Assembly: GCA_902787715.1 (NCBI GenBank)
Contig: CADAHQ010000001.1
Location: forward strand, 1-64,000
DNA: 64,000 nucleotides
Direction of reading: 5' to 3'
From: an uncultured Lachnospiraceae bacterium
GTDB lineage: Bacteria; Bacillota; Clostridia; Lachnospirales; Lachnospiraceae
The notes beneath the pieces were generated by a model, which was not told where the DNA came from, did no database searches, and worked only from the letters and a program-made list of their open reading frames with translations. The number at the start of each line of letters is the position of its first letter. Within the stretch, counting starts at the first letter, position 1. A program made the position numbers and the translations under genes. This document shows positions 4,845 through 36,640 of this stretch, piece after piece.

Positions 4845-5546
4845 ATGAGTTACGTAGAGTTTTCAGATGTGACGAAGGTATACCGCGTCGGGGAAGTGAC
4901 AATCCCGGCGCTGAACGGCGTCACCTTCGAGGTGGAAAAAGGGGAAATCTGTGTGGTTGTCGGTGCTTCCGGCGCCGGCAAGACCACGATTCTCAACATC
5001 CTCGGCGGCATGGATTCCGCCACCGACGGCAAGGTCCTTCTGGACGGGATTGAGATTTCCGCATTTAACAAAAAACAATTGACGGAATACCGCAGGGCGG
5101 ACATCGGGTTTGTGTTTCAGTTTTATAACCTGGTGCAGAATCTGACGGCGCTTGAGAACGTGGAGCTTGCTTCGCAGATTTGCCGCGATTCGCTGCCCGC
5201 TGCGGAAGTGCTTTCGGCGGTAGGACTTGCGGAGCGGATGCAGAATTTTCCGGCGCAGCTCTCCGGCGGTGAGCAGCAGCGCGTGGCCATCGCAAGAGCC
5301 CTGGCGAAGAAGCCGAAGCTCCTTCTGTGCGACGAGCCCACGGGAGCCCTGGATTACAAGACCGGAAAGGCGATCCTTGCCCTCCTGGCGGAAACCGCGC
5401 GGAAGTATGATATGACCGTCATTATCATCACCCACAACCAGGCCATTGCGAAGATGGCGGACCGCGTCATCGAGGTTGGCAGCGGCAGAATCAAGAATAT
5501 GTATAAAAACGCGATCGTTACACCGATCGAGCAGATAGAGTGGTAG
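4845..5546 (+). CDS. ABC transporter ATP-binding protein (LolD/MacB type)
   Basis: A 233-residue ATPase with Walker [10 protein letters not shown] near residue 42, signature [15 protein letters not shown], Walker [13 protein letters not shown] and a switch His in IIITHNQ. It belongs to the group whose partners are FtsX-fold permeases (LolD, MacB, BceA). The start at 4845 follows GGAAGG with good spacing; an in-frame GTG 24 bases upstream is less likely. It overlaps or abuts the large permease gene that follows, so the two almost certainly make one transporter. The substrate is unknown; no sensor kinase or regulator is adjacent. Confidence 0.93.
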
Positions 5547-5551
5547 AAATC

Positions 5552-8098
5552 ATGACCAAAGGAATGCGAACAACCACACGGCGGGAAATCCGCCAAAGTC
5601 TCGGCAGATATCTGGCGATCGCGGCGATTATTGCCCTCGGGGTGGGATTTTTCGCAGGTCTGCGAAACACCACGGCGGATATGCTTGCCACGGCGGACCG
5701 GTATCTTGCGGATCTTTCCATGTTCGACTACCGGCTGGTTTCCACCGTCGGCTTCACGGAGCAGGAGCTTGCGGAGCTTCGGAAAGACACGAACGTGGTG
5801 GCCGCCGACGGCGAGATGCAGAAGATGGTTTTGTATCACGACGATAACTACGGCGATGACCGGGTGCTCGTGGTGCACTCCGTGACCGAGGGCGTCAACA
5901 CCATAAAGATTACCGAGGGCAGACTTCCGCAGGCGCCGGATGAGTGCGTGATGGACGCGAGAAACTACGGCCCCGACCGAATCGGTTCGGTGGTGCGGAT
6001 TGCCGAGGAGTTTGTGAAGGACGTAGACGATGCCGACAGCAGCGAAATTCTCCTGCGGTACCGGGAATACCGCGTCGTGGGCCTTGCATTTTCCCCGCTG
6101 TATTTGAACTATGAGCGCGGGACCACGGAGCTCGGGGACGGCACCGTCGGAGGGTTTTTGTATATTCCGAGGGAAGGATTTGCCGGGGAGATTTACACCT
6201 CGCTGTATGCGGTGGTAAACCACGGCGAGACCGCGTACTCGGAGGAGTACGACGAGTTGCTTGACAAGACTGAGAAGTCCATGGACGCTCTCTGCGAGCG
6301 GCTCTGCGAGATGCGAAAGGAAAGCCTGCAGGAAGAGATTCATGCGCAGGTTCGGGATACGGTTGCGGCGGAGTTCGCCAAATACGGCATGACGGTGCCG
6401 GAAGGGTACGACTATCCCTATGCGGACTACGACAACATCGAGTATGTGCGCTATACGGTGGACCGCAACACGAATATCGGCTATGTGTGCTTTGACAATG
6501 ACGCGCATATTGTGGAAGGTATCGCCACGGTGTTTCCGGCGTTCTTTATTTTGGTGGCGGCGCTTGTGTGCATGACCACCATGAGCCGTATGATCGATGA
6601 GCAGCGCACCCAGATTGGTGTGATGAAGGCTTTGGGATACACCGGTCCTTCCATTGCGATGAAGTATGTCATCTACTCGGGAAGCGCCGCGCTTGTGGGC
6701 GGCGTCATCGGGTATTTTGTGGGCTGCAGGGCGTTGCCTGCGGCAATCTGGCAAGTCTATGACATCATGTACGGCTTTACGGACAAGCTGGTGTATGTCC
6801 AAACGCCGGGTCTGTTTGCCTTCTGCATGGCGGTGGCCGTGTTGTGTCCGGTGGGTGTTACGGTTGTGAGCATTGCGCGGGTAATGCGCGAGGTGCCCGC
6901 GGAATTAATCCGCCCGAGAGCCCCGAAGTCCGGCAAGCGCATCTTCCTCGAGAAGGTAGGTATTATCTGGAACCGGTTGTCCTTCCTTGCCAAGGTTTCG
7001 GTTCGAAACGTCGTAAGATACAAACGACGCTTCTTTATGATGGTCATCGGTATCGCCGGCTGCATGGCGCTGCTGATTGCGGGCCACGGCATCCGCGATT
7101 CCATCACCACCATCACCTCCGTACAATACGGCTCCATCGAGCATTACGATTTCACCGTGCGCCTTGCGGACGGGGCGAGAGAGGATTTCCTTCGCGACTC
7201 CGCAGCGCTTGTGTCGAAAACCGCATTTTTAACCGATACCTCTGTGACGGTGATTGCCGGCGGGCGCAACAAAGATATTTATCTTTACGTGCCGGAGGAT
7301 ACGGATGGATTTGCCGGGTTTGTCACGTTTTCGGACGTGAAGGGAGACCCGATGGAAGCACCGTCCCTCGGCGAATGCTACATAAACGATGATTTCGCCG
7401 GCCGCCTGGAGATTTCGGCGGGAGACACCGTCACACTGCGGCGGGAAGGGAAGCGCGACGTCACCGTGAAGGTGGGGGGTATCATCCGCAACTACGTCGG
7501 AAACTGCATGTATATGACAAGGGAGACCTACCGCGGAATCTTCGGCGAAGAGCCTGCCTTCGACACGGTTTTTGCCATGCGAAACGACGGGGACGACGCC
7601 TATGCGGTGGGCGCGCAACTCGCAAAGCTTCCGGGGGTCACCTCGGTGAGCATCGTGGAGGAGTTTGAGGAGCGGATTGCGAACATGCTGGACCGCCTCG
7701 ACATCATCGTCGTGATTGTCATTGTATGCTCGGCGGCTCTGGCGGGTATCGTTCTGTACAACCTGACAAACATCACCATCACGGAGCGCATCCGCGAGAT
7801 TGCGACCATCAAGGTGCTCGGCTTCCGCAGCATGGAGACGGCGATTTACGTATTCCGCGAAAACCTGATGCTCACGGCGGTGGGCGCGATCGTGGGCGTG
7901 CCGCTCGGGCAGCTTCTTTTGGAATTTGTCATGTCGAAGATCCATGTGGATCTCGTGTCCTTCCGGTCCTTTGTGGGGTGGAAGAGTTATGTCATGTGTT
8001 TCGTCTATACATTCCTGTTTGCCCTGATTGTGGACGTGATTATGTACCGCCGGCTCGATTCCGTGGATATGGCGGAATCCTTGAAGAGCATCGAGTGA
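5552..8098 (+). CDS. FtsX-domain ABC transporter permease with two large ectodomains
   Basis: About 848 residues. It has one helix near the N-terminus (LAIAAIIALGVGFFAG), an extracytoplasmic domain of about 270 residues, a group of helices around residues 325-440, another helix near 500 (MVIGIAGCMALLIAG), a second ectodomain and three C-terminal helices. MKALGYTG and IKVLGFRS are the paired FtsX-type cytoplasmic loops that contact the ATPase. This is the duplicated-FtsX layout of Gram-positive 'ABC transporter permease' proteins. ATG 5552 lies six bases after the ATPase stop; an in-frame GTG at 5540 would overlap the ATPase gene instead. Substrate unknown. Confidence 0.9.
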   Translation: MTKGMRTTTRREIRQSLGRYLAIAAIIALGVGFFAGLRNTTADMLATADRYLADLSMFDYRLVSTVGFTEQELAELRKDTNVVAADGEMQKMVLYHDDNYGDDRVLVVHSVTEGVNTIKITEGRLPQAPDECVMDARNYGPDRIGSVVRIAEEFVKDVDDADSSEILLRYREYRVVGLAFSPLYLNYERGTTELGDGTVGGFLYIPREGFAGEIYTSLYAVVNHGETAYSEEYDELLDKTEKSMDALCERLCEMRKESLQEEIHAQVRDTVAAEFAKYGMTVPEGYDYPYADYDNIEYVRYTVDRNTNIGYVCFDNDAHIVEGIATVFPAFFILVAALVCMTTMSRMIDEQRTQIGVMKALGYTGPSIAMKYVIYSGSAALVGGVIGYFVGCRALPAAIWQVYDIMYGFTDKLVYVQTPGLFAFCMAVAVLCPVGVTVVSIARVMREVPAELIRPRAPKSGKRIFLEKVGIIWNRLSFLAKVSVRNVVRYKRRFFMMVIGIAGCMALLIAGHGIRDSITTITSVQYGSIEHYDFTVRLADGAREDFLRDSAALVSKTAFLTDTSVTVIAGGRNKDIYLYVPEDTDGFAGFVTFSDVKGDPMEAPSLGECYINDDFAGRLEISAGDTVTLRREGKRDVTVKVGGIIRNYVGNCMYMTRETYRGIFGEEPAFDTVFAMRNDGDDAYAVGAQLAKLPGVTSVSIVEEFEERIANMLDRLDIIVVIVIVCSAALAGIVLYNLTNITITERIREIATIKVLGFRSMETAIYVFRENLMLTAVGAIVGVPLGQLLLEFVMSKIHVDLVSFRSFVGWKSYVMCFVYTFLFALIVDVIMYRRLDSVDMAESLKSIE

Positions 8099-29902: not shown

Positions 29903-29931
29903 TTGACATTTGCCGAATTGTGTTGTAACAT
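29903..29931 (+). promoter_or_regulatory. Promoter of the T-box leader
   Basis: TTGACA, 17-base spacer, TAACAT. It starts five bases after the ABC fusion stop and would begin transcription near 29938, at the start of the T-box RNA. Confidence 0.65.
29921..29930. repeat. Right copy of 10-bp direct repeat flanking the island
   Basis: TGTTGTAACA, identical to 25928-25937. It overlaps the -10 region of the T-box promoter. Confidence 0.45.
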
Positions 29932-29937
29932 TTCGAC

Positions 29938-30222
29938 CAACGGAGTTTTATAGTCAGAAAAGCGTGGAAGAGGACCAGTACTTTTGTTTCGGGTTCAGAA
30001 AGCTGCCGGGGGATGCGAGGCAGTCGAAGAAACAATGGGAACTCACCTCGGAGCTGCCGATTGAAGGCCGAAAGGTTGTGTAGATTGTGCCGGTTTCCTA
30101 CCGTTACCGTAAGGAAGAGTATCGACTTATTGTCCGTGCTTGCTGAGTGCATGAGAAATCATGAAGTAGAGTGGTACCACGTATTTTACGCCTCTATCGT
30201 TTCGACGATAGAGGCGTTTTCT
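29938..30222 (+). promoter_or_regulatory. T-box riboswitch, leucine-type specifier
   Basis: A tRNA-sensing leader filling the 384-base gap ahead of the fusion gene. The T-box core AGAGTGGTACCACG is at 30168-30181, pairing partner for the uncharged tRNA end in the antiterminator. The terminator is CGCCTCTATCGT/ACGATAGAGGCG with a TTCG loop and TTTT (30189-30222). Stem I shows the early GGAAGAGGACCAGTA element, a CTGCC...GGCAG terminal arm (about 30003-30023) and the specifier stretch GAA-CTC-ACC at 30039-30047. CTC (30042-30044) is a leucine codon. Low charged tRNA-Leu would therefore switch the downstream gene on. Specifier choice is by pattern, not by a computed fold. Confidence 0.88.
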
Positions 30223-30282
30223 AATGCGAACAAAACTCGCAAGCCTGCCTTGCTGAATTAATAAGAGAAAGGGAACAGAAAC

Positions 30283-32808
30283 ATGAAAATCAGCTTCTCC
30301 ACATTGGGATGCCCGGATTATTCCTGGACCGACATTTACACGATGGCGAAAGATCTCGGCTATCACGGCATTGAGATTCGCGGACTCGGCAATGATATTC
30401 TTGCGACACGCGCGAAACCGTTTTCGGAGGAACAGCTTCCGAACACAGTAGCGAAGCTGCGGGAGATCGGCATTGAGGTTTCCTGCCTTTCCTCGGGAAT
30501 TGCCCTGAAATATCAGGCAAAGCTTCCGAAGATCATGGAAGAGCTGACGGCTTACGCGAAGCTTGCCAATGCTCTGGGAACCGCGTACATCCGTGTGCTT
30601 GCCGACGAGCATCCGGCACCGGAGGGCGAGGTGGACGATGAGGCCATCATCGCAACGCTTAAACAGCTGGTTCCGATTGCGGAGCAGTACAATGTGACCA
30701 TGCTTGTGGAGACCAACGGTGTGTATTCCGAGACGGCGCGCTTGAAGAAGATTCTCGACGAAGTGGGAAGCCGGAAGATTGCCGCTTTGTGGGATATTCA
30801 TCATCCGTTCCGCAACTTCGGGGAGACCCCGGAGCAGACGGTGGCAACCCTCGGCGAATACATCAAATACGTCCACGTAAAGGACTCCGTATGCCGCGAC
30901 GGCAAGATTTCCTATCGCTTGATGGGCGACGGCGACATGCCTTTGAAGGAAGCATTTGCCGCACTTATGAGCATGCACTACACCGGCTACGTTTCGTTAG
31001 AATGGGTGAAGCGCTGGTCCGCAGAGCTTGCCGACGCGTGGGTTGTGTTCCCGCAGTTCGCAAACTATATGCGGCCGTACAAGACAAAGCATAAGCACGC
31101 GCTGCAGACGGACAACCGCGGTACGGGCAATTATATCTGGCCGAAGGAGCGTTTGATCGACTACACGTTCCCGGATATTCTGGACCGCATCTGCGAGGCT
31201 TTTCCGACGCAGTACGCATTCCGCTATACGGAGCTTGATTACACGAGAACTTATCCGGAGTTCCGTGACGACGTGGACAATTTCGCCCGCGCGTTGATTG
31301 CCATGGACGTTAAGAAGGGCGATCACGTAGCCATCTGGGCGACCAATGTTCCCGCATGGTACATCACCTTCTGGGCCACCACGAAGATCGGTGCCGTTTT
31401 GGTTACGGTAAATACCGCCTACAAGATTCACGAGATTGAATATTTGCTTCGTCAGTCCGACACGCATACCCTTGTCATGATTGACGGCTTCAAGGATTGC
31501 GATTACATCGGAACCATGAAGGAGTTGTGTCCGGAGCTTGCAACCTGCGAGCCGGGCAAGCTGGAGAGCGAGAGACTGCCGTACCTGAAGAATATCATCA
31601 CAGTTGACAGCCGTCAGCCGGGTTGCTTTACCTGGGATGAGGCCGTTAAGCTCGGCGAGACCGTGCCGCTTACGGAAGTGGAGAAGCGCCGCGCCGCAGT
31701 TGACAAGAACGACGTGTGCAACATGCAGTACACCTCCGGAACCACCGGTTTCCCGAAGGGTGTTATGCTCACGCACTACAATGTTGTCAACAACGGTAAG
31801 GCCATCGGCGACTGCATGGATCTTTCCACGGCGGACCGCATGATGATCCAGGTACCCATGTTCCATTGCTTCGGCATGGTGCTTGCCATGACGGCTTCCG
31901 TGACCCACGGTGTCACCATGTCCCCGATTCCGGCATTCTCGCCGAGAAAGAGCTTAAACTGCATCAACCAGGAGAAGATTACCTGCTTCCACGGTGTGCC
32001 GACGATGTTTATCGCGATGCTGGGACATGAGAATTTCCCGAAGACCGATTTCTCCCATATGAGAACCGGTATCATGGCGGGATCGCCGTGCCCGATCAAG
32101 ACCATGGAAGAGGTCATCGAGAAGATGCATATGCCCGAGATCGTTATCACCTACGGTCAGACAGAGGCTTCGCCTGCGACGACCATGAGCAAGACCAGCG
32201 ATACCATCGAGCAGCGTGTCAATACGGTAGGACCTTCCATCTTCGGCGTTGAGACCAAGATTGTGGATCCCGAGACCGGCGAGGAGCTTCCGGACGGCGT
32301 TCCGGGCGAGTTCTGCGCACGCGGTTACAATATCATGAAGGGCTACTACAAGATGCCCGAGGCAACGGCCGCAGCCATCGATGAGGACGGCTGGCTTCAC
32401 TCGGGAGACCTTGCACTGCGTCGCCCGGAGGACGGTTACTACAAGATTACGGGCCGCATCAAGGATATGATTATCCGCGGCGGTGAGAATATCTATCCGA
32501 AGGAGATTGAGGACTTCCTTTACACCTACGAAAAGGTGAAGGACGTTCAGGTCATCGGTGTTCCGGATGCCGACTACGGCGAGGAGATTATGGCCTGCAT
32601 CATTCTGCAGGACGGCGTAGAGTGCACCGAGGACGAGATCAAGGATTACGTCCGCACCCATATGGCAAAGCACAAGGTGCCGAAATATGTGGATTTCGTG
32701 AAGGAATTCCCGATGAATGCCGCAGGTAAGATCCTGAAGTACAAGATGCGTGAAGAGGCGGTGGAGAGACATGATCTGCACCGTGCAAACCGCATTGAGA
32801 CGGCGTAA
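30283..32808 (+). CDS. TIM-barrel isomerase-like domain fused to an acyl-CoA synthetase
   Basis: An 841-residue fusion. Residues 1-275 resemble xylose-isomerase-like TIM-barrel proteins (LGYHGIEIRGLG, LVETNGVYS, ALWDIHHPFR, YVHVKDS, YVSLEW). From about residue 295 it is an AMP-forming ligase: YTSGTTGFPKGVMLTH near residue 483, YGQTEASP, DGWLHSGDLA, GRIKDMIIRGGENIYP and a C-terminal NAAGKILKYKMRE lysine. The ligase half resembles medium- or short-chain fatty acyl-CoA ligases. No stop or ribosome site separates the halves. It lies directly behind a T-box, so it is probably induced by amino-acid starvation; substrate not known. Confidence 0.9.
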   Translation: MKISFSTLGCPDYSWTDIYTMAKDLGYHGIEIRGLGNDILATRAKPFSEEQLPNTVAKLREIGIEVSCLSSGIALKYQAKLPKIMEELTAYAKLANALGTAYIRVLADEHPAPEGEVDDEAIIATLKQLVPIAEQYNVTMLVETNGVYSETARLKKILDEVGSRKIAALWDIHHPFRNFGETPEQTVATLGEYIKYVHVKDSVCRDGKISYRLMGDGDMPLKEAFAALMSMHYTGYVSLEWVKRWSAELADAWVVFPQFANYMRPYKTKHKHALQTDNRGTGNYIWPKERLIDYTFPDILDRICEAFPTQYAFRYTELDYTRTYPEFRDDVDNFARALIAMDVKKGDHVAIWATNVPAWYITFWATTKIGAVLVTVNTAYKIHEIEYLLRQSDTHTLVMIDGFKDCDYIGTMKELCPELATCEPGKLESERLPYLKNIITVDSRQPGCFTWDEAVKLGETVPLTEVEKRRAAVDKNDVCNMQYTSGTTGFPKGVMLTHYNVVNNGKAIGDCMDLSTADRMMIQVPMFHCFGMVLAMTASVTHGVTMSPIPAFSPRKSLNCINQEKITCFHGVPTMFIAMLGHENFPKTDFSHMRTGIMAGSPCPIKTMEEVIEKMHMPEIVITYGQTEASPATTMSKTSDTIEQRVNTVGPSIFGVETKIVDPETGEELPDGVPGEFCARGYNIMKGYYKMPEATAAAIDEDGWLHSGDLALRRPEDGYYKITGRIKDMIIRGGENIYPKEIEDFLYTYEKVKDVQVIGVPDADYGEEIMACIILQDGVECTEDEIKDYVRTHMAKHKVPKYVDFVKEFPMNAAGKILKYKMREEAVERHDLHRANRIETA

Positions 32809-36455: not shown

Positions 36456-36640
36456 AACTTTCCTGGGATGTTCGACACCTCCGTAATTTTTGAACCTACG
36501 AAACTGAATAAGGGATTCCTATATCTGTATGTGGATGTCAGGCCTCCTTGCAGTGGAAGGCAGAAGCATACGTGCGGTCACCCACCTGGCTACATGCTGG
36601 GAGTCAAAAAGCGGAGCCGGCATCTTGGGAACTATGGAAA
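36456..36640 (+). ncRNA. ssrS: 6S RNA
   Basis: The region starts two bases past the yajC stop and has no gene. TTCCTGGGATG (36460-36470) pairs with CATCTTGGGAA (36621-36631) in 11 pairs with three G-U, closing a long hairpin with a purine/pyrimidine-rich central bubble. The ends GGGATGTTCG and GCCGGCATC match the conserved 6S closing stem known from E. coli and Firmicutes. 6S RNA mimics an open promoter and holds sigma-70-type RNA polymerase in stationary phase. A terminator follows directly. Ends are approximate; I see no clear promoter, so it may be cut from the yajC transcript. Confidence 0.82.

Follow-up and report, generated by a model that had tools for sequence, protein, structure and literature searches.

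T-box leaders that answer to leucine, such as that of the Bacillus subtilis ilv-leu operon, combine a Stem I and a CUC specifier codon with a UGGN bulge and an antiterminator that competes with a terminator. The CUC codon is read by tRNA-Leu with the anticodon GAG, and the bulge pairs with the acceptor end of the tRNA; the CUC of ilv-leu itself is said to have been described by Marta et al. in 1996. Here, we consider a leader with this same set of features in a 64,000-nucleotide stretch of DNA from an uncultured Lachnospiraceae bacterium (the window, to whose forward strand the coordinates below refer unless a locus is named). Its target is of a different kind: what follows the leader is neither ilv-leu nor a gene for an aminoacyl-tRNA synthetase or a transporter, but a gene that fuses a TIM barrel to an acyl-CoA ligase. 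We consider it probable that this gene encodes a starvation-driven isovalerate-CoA ligase that feeds reductive carboxylation to leucine; regulation by the T-box is well supported, and the ligase substrate is what we infer from sequence comparison.

Two described systems frame the metabolic side of this proposal. The first comes from the rumen, where microbes can obtain leucine by direct carboxylation of isovalerate (available text of PMC7356843, citing Allison 1962, 1966). The chemistry proposed here is the same, and Ruminococcus flavefaciens is among the carriers of the fusion, but whereas the work of Allison and others is reported to have traced isovalerate into leucine, the window locus puts forward a candidate gene together with a leucine switch, both from sequence alone. 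The second is MbcS, the methylbutyryl-CoA synthetase, which likewise stands for ATP-dependent activation of short branched acids. According to the portion of PMC10026030 available, the Staphylococcus aureus enzyme uses isovalerate poorly, which would explain the need for a separate leucine ligase. The window ligase, in contrast, carries a TIM barrel and is 25% identical to the MbcS-like protein of its own genome, a helix-turn-helix (HTH)-cupin fusion encoded behind an isoleucine T-box.

A preliminary description of this region, made from its letters, had proposed a T-box core, a GAA-CTC-ACC specifier stretch, and a competing terminator, all ahead of a TIM-barrel/AMP-ligase fusion, and each of these elements is borne out (Table 1). 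The RF00230 alignment exceeds the curated threshold and covers the full model (positions 1-219; Rfam cmscan), beginning 18 bases downstream of the start first assigned to the region (29938), and the same leader was recovered in a genome-wide T-box search. When checked against RF00230, the specifier codon falls between GAA (30039-30041) and ACC (30045-30047), and a GAGG/CCUC pairing of lower Stem I leaves a single base (A) behind CUC. The alternative frames ACU, UCA, and CAC were rejected: none of them agrees with the GAA anchor or with the single base that separates the specifier from the lower stem, and the CUC column is constant across leaders. None of 200 shuffled sequences folds as well as the terminator with its U run. 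The antiterminator (30165-30199; -6.5 kcal/mol, z -1.0) is equaled by 37 of 200 shuffles and so is not significant by itself; it lies within the covariance alignment, and because it and the terminator use common bases, the two folds are mutually exclusive.

Table 1. Features of the T-box leader, the fusion gene, and their surroundings, in window coordinates.
Feature	Position	Strand	Evidence
Plausible sigma-70-like promoter, TTGACA (29903-29908), 17 bases, TAACAT (29926-29931)	29903-29931	+	By eye
T-box leader RF00230, Stem I to antiterminator	29956-30198	+	cmscan 101.5 bits, gathering score 93, E 3.1e-21
Specifier codon CUC (Leu; CTC in the DNA)	30042-30044	+	Covariance alignment, GAA-CUC-ACC
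T-box core AGAGTGGTACCACG / AGAGUGGUACCACG with UGGU bulge	30168-30181	+	Sequence read and covariance alignment
Intrinsic terminator hairpin, then U run	30188-30217	+	Fold -21.9 kcal/mol, z -7.6
TIM barrel/acyl-CoA ligase fusion gene, 841 residues	30283-32808	+	Open reading frame; Pfam PF01261, PF00501, PF13193
N-terminal xylose-isomerase-like TIM barrel, residues 1-276	30283-31110	+	Pfam, AlphaFold model, Foldseek
Acyl-CoA ligase part, residues 296-841, including TSGTTGFPKG motif	31168-32805	+	Pfam, translation
tRNA-Trp	Downstream of fusion gene		

In the mechanism that we envisage, uncharged tRNA-Leu(GAG) would pair with the leader at two sites, its CUC specifier and its UGGU bulge, stabilizing the antiterminator so that transcription reads into the fusion gene. 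The ligase domain would then most likely convert free isovalerate to isovaleryl-CoA, which a 2-oxoacid:ferredoxin oxidoreductase of the PFOR (pyruvate:ferredoxin-oxidoreductase) or VOR type would reductively carboxylate to 2-oxoisocaproate, leaving a transaminase to turn this into leucine. The carboxylation requires reduced ferredoxin and the exclusion of oxygen.

The protein itself is readily placed at the level of its domains. All three Pfam matches exceed their cut-offs: PF01261, the TIM barrel, spans residues 22-245, PF00501, the AMP-binding domain, residues 302-689 (314 bits, 1.4e-93), and PF13193 residues 741-816 (65 bits, 1.2e-17), which, with the TSGTTGFPKG motif present in the translation, assigns the ligase part to the ANL superfamily. 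To gauge conservation we aligned 71 fusion proteins of at least 830 residues, 64 from 80 named loci, defined below, and seven from the same bacterial family, the window protein included. Mean identity of the other 70 to the window protein is 82% past residue 275 versus 60% before it. A model of the full-length fusion reaches a mean pLDDT of 62, and its 50 listed PDB matches merely restate the ligase family. The AlphaFold model of the TIM barrel, built from 53 sequences, has a pLDDT of 91.6, and the 50 Foldseek matches listed for it include sugar epimerases, AsbF, and IolI (query TM 0.66-0.79). E143 and D171 are invariant among the 71 aligned proteins, and 70 of them keep E240; position 198 is occupied by H (44 proteins), Q (26), or R (one). 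The barrel may be catalytic, and might even act in the same pathway as the ligase. A scan for the TIM domain on plasmids yielded isomerase-like proteins of less than 60% identity.

Comparative genomics favors a role in leucine supply. The metabolic half of our proposal fits because fusion-bearing members of the family are without LeuB and LeuC, because sister operons for isoleucine and phenylalanine salvage exist, and because PFOR-type genes neighbor the fusion in some genomes. The first of these strands rests on 150 genomes of the same family (G labels, the window's own genome being G000; L labels denote loci), all surveyed for LeuB and for the HTH-cupin-MbcS protein; for LeuC, IlvC, and POR-family genes, the fusion genomes were compared with ten hand-chosen, non-random controls. 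The fusion is present in ten of the 150 (G000, G039, G134, G120, G092, G096, G081, G097, G075, and G115), and reaches or is cut by a contig end in G134, G092, G097, and G115. LeuB exceeds its cut-off in 133 of the 150 genomes, and falls below it in all ten with the fusion versus 7 of the 140 others, three of these seven being under 85% complete. Two cases call for caution. The LeuB match of G097 is split over two frames (contig C89, 40610-41655), which could reflect decay or a sequencing error, in a genome that keeps LeuC, IlvC, and the fusion; G115 has an intermediate LeuB homolog (E 6e-41) adjoining a citrate-synthase-like gene, perhaps an isocitrate dehydrogenase. With both set aside, the comparison stands at 8/10 versus 7/140 (Fisher 5e-8, a value that overstates independence because the compared genomes are related).

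The picture for neighboring steps is similar. A LeuC-length aconitase homolog, frame length alone distinguishing LeuC from aconitase, is found in one of the ten fusion genomes (G097) versus all ten controls, and IlvC in three of ten versus ten of ten. The window's own genome and most of the family's fusion genomes therefore have neither a LeuB over the cut-off nor a LeuC-length protein. Since G081 and G115 keep IlvC in this same condition, the need there would be specific to leucine. A full-length HTH-cupin-MbcS protein is encoded by seven of the ten fusion genomes versus none of the 140 others, and these are exactly the seven that are without IlvC.

Sister switches offer a second line of support. 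The window's own genome has ten T-box matches, three of them above the Rfam threshold, and seven precede apparent aminoacyl-tRNA synthetase or trp genes (judged by eye from protein starts). An isoleucine T-box (AUC; 88.7 bits, under the Rfam threshold) precedes the 787-residue HTH-cupin-MbcS-like ligase (L054:2858-5221, contig C2). This ligase best matches the MbcS family, without reaching the cut-off, and its gene is succeeded by VorB and a POR-gamma gene. The fusion of a ligase to an HTH-cupin part at this locus is in itself unusual. A further T-box, best read as phenylalanine (UUC; 101.5 bits), precedes a homolog of the phenylacetate-CoA ligase PaaK, scoring below the equivalog cut-off, and a paired ACT protein (L052, contig C4, minus strand, 5395-6795 and 4885-5328). 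The codon of this leader (L001) is a matter of judgment, the covariance columns alone giving UCC and the lower-stem pairing UUC; the locus is likely to serve phenylalanine salvage from phenylacetate. Together with the leucine leader, these would make up a set of switches in which an isoleucine T-box governs the MbcS-like ligase and VOR, and a probable phenylalanine T-box the phenylacetate-CoA ligase and ACT protein. Other loci bring the same components together. For instance, L147 carries leucine and isoleucine T-boxes back to back, divergent and both above threshold, before the fusion and the HTH-cupin-MbcS gene respectively; in L080, L083, L089, and L100 the gene immediately ahead of the fusion is MbcS-like, and in the first two of these a separate HTH-type reading frame comes before it; and in L119 the genes for PaaK and ACT are the next downstream of the fusion, about 300 bases away. 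Amidohydrolase-like genes, recognized by eye from translations, occur near three acid-ligase loci (L147:9456-10265, L048:6862-7662, and L054:2-490).

These arrangements bear on the main rival explanation, in which isovaleryl-CoA serves chiefly as a primer of iso-branched fatty acids at times when leucine, from which this primer is normally derived, runs short. The CoA product would be identical and a leucine T-box equally fitting, and in the available portion of PMC10026030 S. aureus MbcS is reported to activate branched acids for this very end. Set against this are the association of the fusion, within the family, with missing LeuB and LeuC, the PFOR-type gene that lies directly behind the fusion in G081 and G115, and the co-location in L119 with a phenylacetate-CoA ligase, whose product does not usually prime membrane lipids. 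We regard priming as unlikely to be the principal role, and favor leucine synthesis from isovalerate.

How widely does the leader accompany the gene? The preliminary description had suggested a search for the same pairing, and other genomes do have it, though far from all. Within the family, a T-box precedes the fusion or its operon in six of the eight testable genomes (G000, G039, G120, G096, G081, and G115); none was seen in the other two, G075 and G097, and G134 and G092 end at a contig edge. In addition, a scan of a named species collection with the barrel-ligase junction returned at least 590 relatives of the query, some of which may not be fusions, and the best 80 of these form our named loci. 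They belong chiefly to Lachnospiraceae, Ruminococcus, Oscillospiraceae, and Saccharofermentans, with herbivore guts in many record titles, and include R. flavefaciens 007c, SAb67, and ATCC 19208; 64 of the 80 have a reading frame of at least 830 residues. With a hidden Markov model built from 15 T-boxes, a leader ahead of the fusion is detected at just 21 of the 80 loci, within 760 bases in 19 and farther off with an intervening reading frame in two. Among ten of these 21 leaders examined with cmscan, the gathering score is reached in five (L147, L077, L070, L112, and L071) and not in L122, L126, L131, L081, and L094.

Where the leader occurs, its codon does not vary. CUC occupies the specifier column in all 26 distinct leaders aligned, the window's included (the single contig behind L134 and L041 is counted once, and L122 is ambiguous), even though the other 25 share just 43-78% identity with the window leader; in a separate alignment of 18 leaders the column is likewise invariant. 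The usual GAA is missing from the variant specifier loop of G120, G096, G081, and G115, with CUC still in register. In the leucine T-boxes of L042, L043, L044, and L051, the specifier loop has UAUG with CAGU or CAAU in place of the usual AGUA/GAA motif. The ambiguous case, L122 (4709-6159), has a DAHP-synthase-like gene between its T-box and the fusion, and its specifier is readable as CUC or UUC: UUC is possible because of the DAHP-synthase-like frame that follows, and we counted it as CUC because that register suits the other leaders of the form NNN-CCUUC(N)-GAG, but it is best treated as ambiguous. As CUC is constant and 59 of the 80 loci have no detected T-box, the pairing of T-box and fusion is specific but far from universal. 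A leucine-rich leader peptide in place of the T-box was sought in seven loci and rejected: none of the three R. flavefaciens strains has one, nor do L088 and L124, and short leucine-containing frames in L104 and L113 look like chance. The earlier suggestion that leucine starvation drives isovaleryl-CoA synthesis thus stands strongly in its regulatory half, by virtue of the 26 leaders, while its metabolic half fits the genomic context, with isovalerate as the predicted substrate.

A second potential tier of leucine sensing emerges from relatives of LeuA. An isopropylmalate-synthase relative of 463-482 residues precedes the fusion in G120, G096, G081, G075, and G115, and a similar one lies on another contig in G092. 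The RDGxQ and HxH motifs, the catalytic and metal motifs of isopropylmalate synthase, are absent from all six when they are compared with alignments of solved LeuA, so that these proteins do not qualify as 2-isopropylmalate synthases, and we rejected the operon-encoded relative of G120, G096, G081, G075, and G115 as an isopropylmalate maker. The leucine-binding LeuA_dimer domain (PF08502) is retained, at 98.8-109.1 bits in the five relatives scanned; the sixth (L064) was aligned only, and the C-terminal domain is common to all six. We read these proteins, the one at L043:6133-7527 among them, as putative leucine sensors. LeuA_dimer proteins occur in 48 of 50 named-locus genomes surveyed for them and for LeuB (50 of the genomes of the 80 loci, that of L134 among them). 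Taken further, and more tentatively, the locus may belong to a T-box-driven regulon that makes amino acids from waste acids, with leucine, isoleucine, and phenylalanine switches each turning on an acid ligase of its own, and several relatives may sense leucine twice, once through the T-box RNA and once through an inactive isopropylmalate synthase that is retained solely because its leucine-binding domain is useful and that would restrain the TIM-ligase; we would put this wider scheme at somewhat below even chances.

LeuA also enters two alternatives to isovalerate activation. In one, the ligase would activate isobutyrate, carboxylation would give 2-oxoisovalerate, and LeuA would extend this to leucine, in keeping with the LeuA-family genes that share an operon with the fusion in G120, G096, G081, G075, G115, and L077. 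In five of these six operons, however, the LeuA-like protein is without the catalytic motifs; no LeuB exceeds the cut-off in any of the ten family fusion genomes (split in G097, intermediate in G115), nine of which also have no LeuC-length protein; and seven genomes already hold an MbcS-like ligase, whose S. aureus relative accepts isobutyrate in the text of PMC10026030 available, all of which makes this route improbable. In the other, the TIM barrel, ligase, and LeuA would jointly provide a new path that leads from 2-isopropylmalate to leucine over CoA-bound intermediates and replaces LeuBCD. In L077 a motif-bearing LeuA does stand between a leucine T-box and the fusion, G000, G039, and G134 retain one although they have neither LeuB nor LeuC, and the acidic residues of the TIM barrel are conserved; against this, RDGxQ and HxH are lost from the LeuA relative in six fusion genomes, so that isopropylmalate would not be made by it, and the TIM step has no known chemistry. 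We consider this route very doubtful.

Several observations weigh against isovalerate activation for leucine, our preferred reading, beyond the relatedness of the genomes noted above. An intact-looking LeuA of 557-568 residues, motifs included, lies beside apparent CdaA and YbbR genes (identified by eye) in four fusion genomes, G000, G039, G134, and G097, of which the first three have neither LeuB nor LeuC; its presence there is unexplained (L060:8343-10049, L061:8024-9712, and L062:6340-8013 are intact-looking copies beside CdaA-type genes in genomes without a LeuB over the cut-off or a LeuC-length protein). The TIM barrel, too, is left without an explanation. The best NCBIfam match of the ligase part, the PRK12583 fatty acid CoA ligase subfamily (NF009233), scores 702.4 bits over residues 289-829, short of the curated cut-off of 832, and the window protein differs from that subfamily by its TIM-barrel fusion. 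No oxidoreductase adjoins the fusion in the window's own genome; three POR matches elsewhere in G000 establish that 2-oxoacid:ferredoxin oxidoreductases are encoded, but all ten controls also have POR-family genes, so that their presence does not discriminate. An MbcS-like ligase part lacking the HTH-cupin portion occurs in 17 of the 140 family genomes without the fusion. The 59 named loci in which no T-box was detected include all three R. flavefaciens strains, and three of the 59 (L084, L087, and L132) have less than 350 bases of upstream sequence. Finally, LeuB is kept in 40 of the 50 named-locus genomes, again including the three R. flavefaciens strains, and in 39 of 45 once five labeled Lachnospiraceae are left out, so that in those lineages salvage gene and LeuB coexist. 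The last of the alternatives draws on the same observations: that the substrate of the ligase is a different acid, for example a product of the TIM barrel, with leucine control indirect, would suit a barrel resembling sugar epimerases and the AsbF dehydratase and the 59 loci without a detected T-box, but is hard to square with CUC in the specifier column of all 26 distinct leaders and a leucine-domain protein in five operons, and we give it very little weight.

Elsewhere in the window, a 6S RNA (RF00013, 77.9 bits) lies at 36457-36635, directly behind a yajC gene.

Both the T-box and the pathway are of known kinds; in the literature searched, their combination, the fusion, and the set of three switches were not found described. 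No report of a T-box before such a fusion was found in that literature, including the available parts of the TBDB paper and of two comparative papers, although the survey of Vitreschak et al. 2008 lay outside the search and absence is unproven. Similarly, no gene for the carboxylation step was found in the literature searched on isovalerate and reductive carboxylation.

Branched-chain volatile fatty acids are growth factors of rumen bacteria, and the conversion of isovalerate to leucine has been described since the 1960s (available text of PMC7356843). If our reading is correct, the fusion would provide a candidate gene for this rumen step, a built-in leucine sensor that points to what is made, and a means of recognizing from their genomes the bacteria that may carry out this step; the core claim is testable with one purified enzyme. 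More broadly, the targets of T-boxes would be extended from synthesis and uptake genes to the salvage of acids, and the leucine-domain pseudo-enzyme of some operons would represent a new form of feedback control.

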